Shown here: one piece after another, positions 57,321-60,816 of the stretch
How positions within the stretch are numbered: the first letter of the stretch is position 1
Layout: every line of letters begins with the position of its first letter
Origin: Rubrobacter marinus
Lineage (GTDB): Bacteria; Actinomycetota; Rubrobacteria; Rubrobacterales; Rubrobacteraceae
Assembly: GCF_011492965.1 (NCBI RefSeq)
Contig: NZ_CP045121.1
Coordinates: 1,922,001 to 1,986,000, forward strand
Direction: 5' to 3'
DNA length: 64,000 nt
Notes under the pieces: model-generated
Seen by the model: the letters and a program-made list of their open reading frames with translations, nothing else
What the model was told of the DNA's origin: nothing
Database searches by the model: none
Translations under genes and position numbers: made by a program

Positions 57321-58700
57321 TCAGCCCTGATCCCAGTAGGTGACGCCGTCGCCGTGGCGGCGGACGAACCGTACGTTGCCGTCCTTGGAGACGACGACCG
57401 CCAGGGCGTCGGGCAGCTCCTTGCAGAGGCGGTAGGCGGAGCGGTGGCGGGTGCCCACGATCTCCGTCGGCTCCTCCTGCACCACGTTCCCCTCGATGTC
57501 GAGCGCTCTGTGGACGGTCTCCACGCTGGAGAGCTTGCCAGAGATCTCGCCGCCGAACCCGAGCAGCTCGTAGCGCTTGGTCATCACCACCGCGCCGTCC
57601 GTCGTGGCGAGGGCGGCGACGAGGTGCGCCACCTCGAGGACCGCCTCCTCGAGGGTCGCGATCCCCTCGTCGTTGGTCTCCTGGTATTCCCGCCAGCCGA
57701 TCTTTCGCGGGGGCTGGGACGCGTCGCTCGTGCAGTGCGCCTGCGCCAGGCGGTTCATGATCTCCACGATAAGAGTGCGGAAGCGCCTCCGCGGCTTGCC
57801 GTCGGAGATCCTGTACTTAAGGGCGACGTAGCGGTTCGAGGTGGAGAACTCCTCGGTCCGCTCCGGGGGCACGAAGATCACCGTCCCCCCGCGCCCGAAG
57901 TTCTGCACGGTCGAGACCAGCCGCTTGAACATCTGTCTGCTGATCCTGCGCGCAAGGTCCGGGTCGAGCGACGCCCACCGCTCGCCGTCGCGCTCGTAGG
58001 CCCGTTCGCGGGCCTGCGAGTGCAGGTTCATCAGCTCCGCCCTCTCCGCCGCGAACACGGCCGGCATCCAGCCGGATTCGAAGACGTCCATCGAAGCGTC
58101 CGAGAGGACGCCGTTCTCCAGCTTGCCGACGATCTCCGAGCCCTTCCGTACCTCGATGCGCCCCGGCCCCGTCACGTGCACGACCGCCAGGGGCGGGAGC
58201 GGCGCGGAGGTGACCCGCCCGCCCTGGCGGTCCCGCAGCCAGCGGGGACCGGAGTGCAGGAGCCCCCAGATCCTCAGGCCCTCCTCCCCGTCGTGCCTGA
58301 CCCCCACGATGGAGCGAGGGTAATCGGTGGCGGGGGAGAGCCGGCGCAGCTCCTGCTCGTCGAAGGTACGGGGCTCCGGAAACTCGAGGGGCTGCAGACC
58401 GTCCGGGGGCCCACCCTCCGGAGGAAACACCTCCGGCGAACCGAGCGCGAGGCGGAAAAGGACGGGCTGGTCCTCCTCGCGGAGGAGGCTCGCCTGGAAA
58501 CAGGTCGAAAGTACCTTTTCCAGCACGGCGATCCGGGGCAGAGGATCGACGGGGGCGCGATGGGAGACGGGGGCGCGAGGGTCCGAAGCGCCCGACGCCT
58601 CCGCCCACCGCGCCGTCACGAACGCGGCGAGATCCCGGGGGTAAGCGTGCTCCGCGTCCGTCCTCTGCTCGTACCCGCGCGACACCATCTCCTCGGACAT
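57321..58700 (-). CDS. Protein with a DisA-N/diadenylate-cyclase-like domain (DACNV type)
   Basis: 459 residues. The C-terminal 180 residues resemble the DAC domain that makes cyclic di-AMP: ATTDGAVVMTKRYELLGFGG (DGA at 368-370) and IVGTRHRSAYRLCKELPDAL (RHRSA at 418-422). These are the two catalytic motifs of DisA and CdaA. The N-terminal 270 residues are not recognised; they contain a beta-rich block (PLAVVHVTGPGRIEVRKGSE). No membrane helices. I recall such proteins being called sensor domain DACNV-containing. ATG 58700 has GGAGGG eight bases upstream. Whether it makes, binds or senses a nucleotide is unknown. Confidence 0.72.
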   Translation of the reverse strand: MSEEMVSRGYEQRTDAEHAYPRDLAAFVTARWAEASGASDPRAPVSHRAPVDPLPRIAVLEKVLSTCFQASLLREEDQPVLFRLALGSPEVFPPEGGPPDGLQPLEFPEPRTFDEQELRRLSPATDYPRSIVGVRHDGEEGLRIWGLLHSGPRWLRDRQGGRVTSAPLPPLAVVHVTGPGRIEVRKGSEIVGKLENGVLSDASMDVFESGWMPAVFAAERAELMNLHSQARERAYERDGERWASLDPDLARRISRQMFKRLVSTVQNFGRGGTVIFVPPERTEEFSTSNRYVALKYRISDGKPRRRFRTLIVEIMNRLAQAHCTSDASQPPRKIGWREYQETNDEGIATLEEAVLEVAHLVAALATTDGAVVMTKRYELLGFGGEISGKLSSVETVHRALDIEGNVVQEEPTEIVGTRHRSAYRLCKELPDALAVVVSKDGNVRFVRRHGDGVTYWDQG

Positions 58701-59365: not shown

Positions 59366-59842
59366 ATGAGAAAGATAGCCCTGCTCGCCGTCGCGACGCT
59401 GCTCGCCTGCGCTTTGCCCACCGAAGGAGCGACCGCCCAGGAAGACGGGACCGGAGAGCGCCTGTTGGAGGCGGCCGAGGGCTTGCAGATGCCCTCCTCC
59501 GAGGCCGACTCCGCCTGGTACCTCGTGTCCTACGCCGGTGTGGACGAGTTGCCGGACGCCGAGTCGTTCGGCGTGATGTCGGGATGCCCCCGTGCCGGCA
59601 CGACCCGCCAGGACTTCGACGAGACCCTGGCTCGACTCAGCGAGGTCGAGCCGTGGATGGACGAGGGCCAGGTGCGCAGCGCCCGCGGCTTCCGCAAGCT
59701 CGGGAAGACCTTCCGCCACGCGCTCGGCGAGGACCTGGCCGTCTACCGTTGCGAGGACGGCGGTCCGGAGGTCGGCATCTACTTCGTCGGCGCCGCGGAC
59801 GGCCGCCTCACGGGCTTGAAGACCATCAGCATAGAAACGTAG
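59366..59842 (+). CDS. Secreted nuclease A inhibitor-like (NuiA family) protein
   Basis: 158 residues. A signal peptide (MRKIALLAVATLLACALPTE, cleavage near ATA|QED) precedes a NuiA-like domain: LLEAAEGLQMPSSEADSAWY matches the family's SESDYPFE opening and VYRCEDGGPEVGIYFVGAAD with LTGLKTISIET matches its end. NuiA of Anabaena inhibits a sugar-nonspecific nuclease. Most homologues are of unknown function, and here export makes it an odd inhibitor. RBS GGGAG before ATG 59366. Confidence 0.68.
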   Translation: MRKIALLAVATLLACALPTEGATAQEDGTGERLLEAAEGLQMPSSEADSAWYLVSYAGVDELPDAESFGVMSGCPRAGTTRQDFDETLARLSEVEPWMDEGQVRSARGFRKLGKTFRHALGEDLAVYRCEDGGPEVGIYFVGAADGRLTGLKTISIET

Positions 59843-60140: not shown

Positions 60141-60629
60141 GTGGAGCAGCCCGAAGAAGCTTCTCGGGTCCTGGCCGGGGTTGTTCTGATGCTAGGCCTG
60201 GCCATCGCGGTGTGGGGCGATACCACAAGCTCCGCCCAGACCAGCGACCGGGCCGCGCAGGCCGCGTCGGAGTGCAAGAGCATCGGCGGCAAGGTGAACT
60301 ACAGGAACGCGCGCGGACAGTTGCTGGCCTACTTCTACGTGAGCCAGAGGTCCTGCTGGAACTACTCCCAGATCACCTACCTCTCCAGGCCGGCGGTCAC
60401 GGCGGGCGTGACCGAGATCGGCGAGGACAGCGGCTGGACGTACGACGGCATCCTCCGCAAGCGCGACTTCTACTACACGTACAAGGGCAACGACTACGGC
60501 GCGCACCTCAGCTCCCGCAAGGGCGGCTTCACCGTCTGCCAGAAGGGCGGCGGCTGCTACCAGGAGACGCCGGTCATCAAGCGTTACGCGTTCTTCGACA
60601 AGGCGGGCTACCAGATCTCGAAGGGCTAG
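60141..60629 (+). CDS. Small secreted protein of unknown function
   Basis: 162 residues from GTG 60141 (ATG 60190 is an alternative). A hydrophobic segment VLAGVVLMLGLAIAVWG and cleavage near SSAQ|TS indicate Sec export. The mature part has four cysteines (AASECKSIGG, RSCWNYSQ, FTVCQKGGGCYQE) that could pair, and many aromatic residues (RKRDFYYTYKGNDYG). I do not recognise the family. Confidence 0.6.
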   Translation: MEQPEEASRVLAGVVLMLGLAIAVWGDTTSSAQTSDRAAQAASECKSIGGKVNYRNARGQLLAYFYVSQRSCWNYSQITYLSRPAVTAGVTEIGEDSGWTYDGILRKRDFYYTYKGNDYGAHLSSRKGGFTVCQKGGGCYQETPVIKRYAFFDKAGYQISKG

Positions 60630-60742: not shown

Positions 60743-60816
60743 GGTGATCGTAGCTCAGTTGGCAGAGCATCGGGTTGTGGTCCCGAAGGTCGCGGGTTCG
60801 AGCCCCGTCGGTCACC
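60743..60816 (+). tRNA. tRNA-His (GTG)
   Basis: G60743 is the extra 5' G(-1) opposite discriminator C60816, as in bacterial tRNA-His. GTGATCG (60744-60750) pairs with CGGTCAC (60809-60815). Anticodon GTG lies in the loop TTGTGGT. CCA is not encoded. TGGTAGAAT at 60721-60729 is an extended -10 like that before tRNA-Pro. Confidence 0.94.

Follow-up and report, generated by a model that had tools for sequence, protein, structure and literature searches.

The window, the whole 64,000-nucleotide stretch of Rubrobacter marinus DNA that was analysed, contains a reverse-strand gene encoding a protein with an N-terminal DACNV domain and a C-terminal half that resembles the diadenylate cyclase (DAC) domain of c-di-AMP synthases. 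The features of this DACNV-DAC gene are, in window coordinates:

57321..58700, (-) strand: DACNV-DAC gene, ATG at 58700, stop codon ending at 57321, 459 amino acids
58709..58714, (-) strand: GGAGGG, Shine-Dalgarno-like, 8 nt 5' of the ATG
58254..58550, (-) strand: DACNV domain (Pfam accession PF21751), residues 51-149, assigned by Pfam match
58086..58253, (-) strand: predicted continuation of the N-terminal alpha/beta domain past the Pfam model, residues 150-205, modelled jointly with DACNV
57987..58052, (-) strand: predicted long helix leading from the N-terminal domain to the DAC domain, residues 217-238, from the AlphaFold2 model
57324..57962, (-) strand: divergent DAC domain as judged by sequence and model, residues ~247-459, carrying additional residues that separate the GALI-like strand from the DGA motif
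57876..57887, (-) strand: G272-T-V-I, putative GALI equivalent, residues 272-275, register set by eye
57591..57599, (-) strand: DGA motif, residues 368-370, read from the sequence
57435..57455, (-) strand: GTRHRSA motif, residues 416-422, read from the sequence
57381..57392, (-) strand: V437-S-K-D440, equivalent of (V/I)SEE by sequence comparison

This open reading frame is a real gene. G+C content at the third codon position is 92%, and comparisons with the two nearest relatives (79% identical) gave a dN of 0.13-0.14 and a dS of 0.67-0.72. The resulting dN/dS ratio of ~0.2 indicates that the gene is under purifying selection and is thus maintained. We found no membrane helix in the encoded protein, as every 19-residue hydropathy window falls below membrane-helix level and the maximum (1.55) is located inside the DAC domain.

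The DACNV-DAC gene stands alone in the window, with a short-chain dehydrogenase gene ~300 bp downstream and the genes for trigger factor and ClpP further upstream on the opposite strand. Across lineages, no conserved operon partner was identified apart from genus-level synteny of the Geomonas type, and the recurrent neighbors reflect either this synteny or very common families (histidine kinases, response regulators). The first-pass annotation had raised the prospect of nucleotide signaling in a new context, an idea that gained no support: the neighborhood survey gave no new genomic context, and the fusion to an N-terminal DACNV domain is already catalogued. Neither the protein nor three proteins encoded nearby gave a match in a PADLOC search for anti-phage defence systems, and the only RNA element near the gene is a tRNA (60744-60816). 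Also nearby on the forward strand are a small protein (59366-59842) with a signal-peptide-like start and a match to NuiA (nuclease A inhibitor-like; E 6.7e-10) and a 162-amino-acid open reading frame (60141-60629) whose start resembles an export signal and which matches no Pfam model. At Geomonas-type loci (L054, L058, L068, and others), a gene of ~409 amino acids is conserved downstream of DACNV-DAC on the opposite strand. Y-family DNA polymerase (IMS) domains occur in three Geomonas-type neighbor proteins, which are most likely the products of these ~409-amino-acid genes.

Sequence comparisons and structural modelling identify the C-terminal half of the protein as a divergent DAC domain. The Pfam DAC model (Pfam accession PF02457) matches the single protein weakly (23.6 bits versus a cut-off of 27), with a score of 27.7 bits in a whole-frame search, and matches 54 of 56 aligned relatives at E ≤ 0.01. 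Profile-profile comparison of the C-terminal half to aligned DACs (DisA, CdaA-like proteins, and others) yielded an hhalign probability of 95.6 (E 1.2e-8) over a region that spans the DGA, RHR, and Ser motifs, with GTVI lying outside the match. The AlphaFold2 model of the full-length protein, built on 56 natural sequences, has a mean pLDDT of 88, and its 50 best Foldseek matches in the PDB are CdaA, CdaM, DacM, DisA, and the related Bacillus cereus structure 2fb5 (probability 0.99-1.00 for the top matches, best E 5e-4).

Inspection of the putative active site showed that the two hallmark motifs noted at first pass, DGA at 368-370 and RHRSA at 418-422, are indeed found at these positions. D368, G369, and A370 of the DGAhh motif (D368-G-A-V-V) are invariant across the 56 relatives, as are G416, R418, and H419 of the GxRHRxA motif (G416-TRHRSA), in which R420 is present in at least 90% of sequences and T417 is usual without being invariant. 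At the (V/I)SEE position the Ser (S438) is kept and an Asp (D440) stands in for the metal-binding Glu; both residues are invariant in the same set. In CdaA, ATP is bound by residues at the DGA, RHR, and SxE positions, with the Asp contacting the ribose, the Arg, His, and Ser contacting the phosphates, and the Glu binding the metal (PMC7288161). Mapping the protein onto this description would place D368 at the ribose, T417, R418, H419, and S438 at the phosphates, and D440 at the metal. An active site devoid of ATP-binding residues, which had been named as an outcome that would count against the first-pass reading, is thus not what we observe, since the key residues are kept. The motifs are also spaced differently from those of CdaA, with ~95 residues rather than 40 between the GALI-like strand and DGA (~55 extra) and 50 rather than 32 between DGA and RHR (18 extra). 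These longer spacings indicate insertions in the DAC domain, which could alter dimerisation or substrate.

Five classes of c-di-AMP synthase have been listed (PMC10167629) and, judged by the NCBIfam models, the DACNV-DAC family falls outside all of them. The protein shares with CdaA (DacA) the predicted DAC fold and active-site motifs, and CdaA is among the best PDB matches, but the protein has no transmembrane region, contains SxD in place of SEE, carries the DAC insertions and an N-terminal DACNV domain, and does not match the CdaA model TIGR00159. DisA is similar in its DAC fold, solubility, and RHR motif, whereas the protein's DAC domain is C-terminal and searches with the Pfam DisA-linker and HhH models and the NCBIfam DisA model returned no match. 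DacZ (CdaZ) likewise has a DAC domain with an RH motif, but the protein does not match the NCBIfam DacZ model; across the models for CdaS, CdaM, and DacZ (NF038328, NF038327, NF041371), the only signal was a sub-threshold CdaS match (15.1 versus 225 bits). Motifs, profile-profile comparison, and fold all support the initial characterization of the protein as a DAC-like enzyme distinct from both DisA and CdaA. The lack of fit to the NCBIfam models for DisA, CdaA, CdaS, CdaM, and DacZ, along with the apparent presence of GTVI instead of GALI at the adenine-contacting strand and longer pocket loops, would also be compatible with a DAC-fold nucleotidyl cyclase that makes another product, such as a linear or mixed dinucleotide. 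This possibility seems quite improbable, given that every residue contacting phosphate or ribose matches its counterpart in ATP-using DACs and that the host genome contains a c-di-AMP riboswitch.

We turn now to the N-terminal half, where the first 270 residues had been described as unrecognized. The Pfam DACNV match at residues 51-149 (E 6.5e-31, 106.8 bits versus a curated cut-off of 27) overturns this description in part, and the domain is found in 56 of 56 aligned relatives. The first-pass annotation thus recognized the DAC signature correctly and missed a catalogued domain, which Pfam titles 'Probable sensor domain DACNV'. On the basis of this match, the front half of the protein is a catalogued probable sensor domain that is fused to DAC domains of this type in many phyla. 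Our literature search found no paper or experimental work on DACNV.

The Pfam model spans just part of the predicted N-terminal structural unit. An AlphaFold2 model of the N-terminal fragment alone (residues 17-246; pLDDT 84, pTM 0.79) predicts a single alpha/beta domain that extends to approximately residue 205 and is followed by the helix at 217-238. Conservation within DACNV is highest in the stretch C67-x-QASLLREE-x-x-PV-x-FR83, in which Q69, A70, S71, L72, E75, E76, and R83 are invariant among the 56 relatives. Foldseek searches with the fragment model identified no counterpart in the PDB (best E 0.88) or among viral models (best E 0.18), and a search of the PDB with the N-terminal sequence profile gave chance matches to thermonuclease alone (E 1.3). 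By eye, the helix/strand order and a few motifs (IWGLLHSG...LAVVHVTGPG) resemble the C-terminal half, as might be expected if the N-terminal half were a degenerate second DAC domain that pairs internally with the C-terminal domain as a pseudo-dimer. Such an arrangement is very hard to reconcile with the comparisons, as hhalign probabilities were 0.4-1.3% against the C-terminal half and 0.1% against canonical DACs, and the Foldseek search contained no DAC match. We thus rejected a second DAC domain.

When each GTDB species, represented by a single genome, was scanned for two peptide patterns, at least 73 DACNV-DAC loci were identified, a count that this method makes a lower bound. Full-length, conserved proteins are encoded in Rubrobacteraceae, Geobacterales, Syntrophobacteraceae, Nitrospirota, Verrucomicrobiota, Acidobacteriota, Melainabacteria, Myxococcota, and Planctomycetes, and the 73 loci also extend to Binatota. 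Among the 297 genomes sampled from the host phylum, DACNV occurs in the host's own family only. Family members have the same two domains (PF21751 and PF02457) in the same order as the R. marinus protein, which shares 40-79% full-length identity with most of them and ~30% with the planctomycete ones, and shows no substantive difference. In the phylogenetic tree, the protein and two Rubrobacter sequences fall together within a clade composed mostly of Rubrobacteraceae. The protein is not new in kind but adds a Rubrobacter member to a family that is known and widespread and, since DACNV is already in Pfam, our contribution is an active-site census, a domain anatomy, and a phyletic range, and not the discovery of a family. 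DACNV-DAC sequences from two Acidobacteriota MAG contigs (L047, L067) are nested within the Rubrobacteraceae group, reflecting either horizontal transfer or mis-binned contigs.

Other parts of a c-di-AMP network are present in the host genome. These include DisA (C1:1099056; NCBIfam equivalog, 420 bits), a small DacZ-like DAC (C1:2585170; NCBIfam DacZ E 1.2e-42, far below cut-off), and one c-di-AMP riboswitch (RF00379; C1:2306912-2307080, 76.5 bits). A second DACNV-DAC copy (C1 ~293.9-295.3 kb) is broken over at least three reading frames and represents a pseudogene or assembly errors. DACNV-DAC is similarly accompanied by one or two better-scoring DACs in most other named genomes that we checked, and so appears to be an accessory synthase. 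Its occurrence in addition to a canonical DAC, together with the Glu to Asp replacement and the DAC insertions, could alternatively point to a non-catalytic nucleotide sensor that binds ATP or c-di-AMP, forms no product, and relays its state through DACNV. We regard this as unlikely. Pseudoenzymes usually lose catalytic motifs, whereas the motifs here are invariant across several phyla, and no canonical DAC was found alongside DACNV-DAC in three draft or MAG-level genomes, although absence from assemblies of this kind is weak evidence.

The R. marinus protein is thus probably a soluble accessory c-di-AMP synthase that is gated by its N-terminal input domain. This reading draws on the DACNV and DAC assignments, the invariant residues, the hhalign comparison, the predicted fold, the dN/dS ratio, the network parts, and the lack of membrane helices; the weak single-sequence DAC match, the replacement of the SEE Glu by Asp and the apparent one of GALI by GTVI, and the DAC insertions count against it. 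DAC catalysis needs two facing DAC domains, and an input domain attached to the enzyme may control it (PMC7288161). The anatomy seen here, in which a long helix connects an input domain to a DAC that retains every key residue, is consistent with synthesis of c-di-AMP gated by a signal. In the proposed mechanism, two ATP-bound DAC domains would come face to face and join their two ATP molecules into c-di-AMP, with the DACNV module promoting or blocking this pairing through the long helix upon binding a signal. The c-di-AMP produced would then feed a cellular network that includes DisA, the DacZ-like enzyme, and the riboswitch. If the protein is active, c-di-AMP signaling might have a soluble, signal-gated branch beyond the five listed classes, and the conserved DACNV motif would be a starting place in the search for the signal.

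Several minor observations concern neighboring genes and related proteins. The DacZ-like gene, which encodes an archaeal-type DAC in an actinobacterium, lies immediately downstream of a gene that resembles a sensor histidine kinase. The riboswitch precedes a gene for a 683-amino-acid permease-like protein that has no Pfam, NCBIfam, or PDB match, and genes with TrkA_C domains (2304507 and 2305170) lie close by. Polyangium genomes (L134) encode a third DAC protein of ~385 amino acids whose DAC part resembles the DACNV-associated type (GHGGTVLVVPD ... GTRHRSA ... SQDG).
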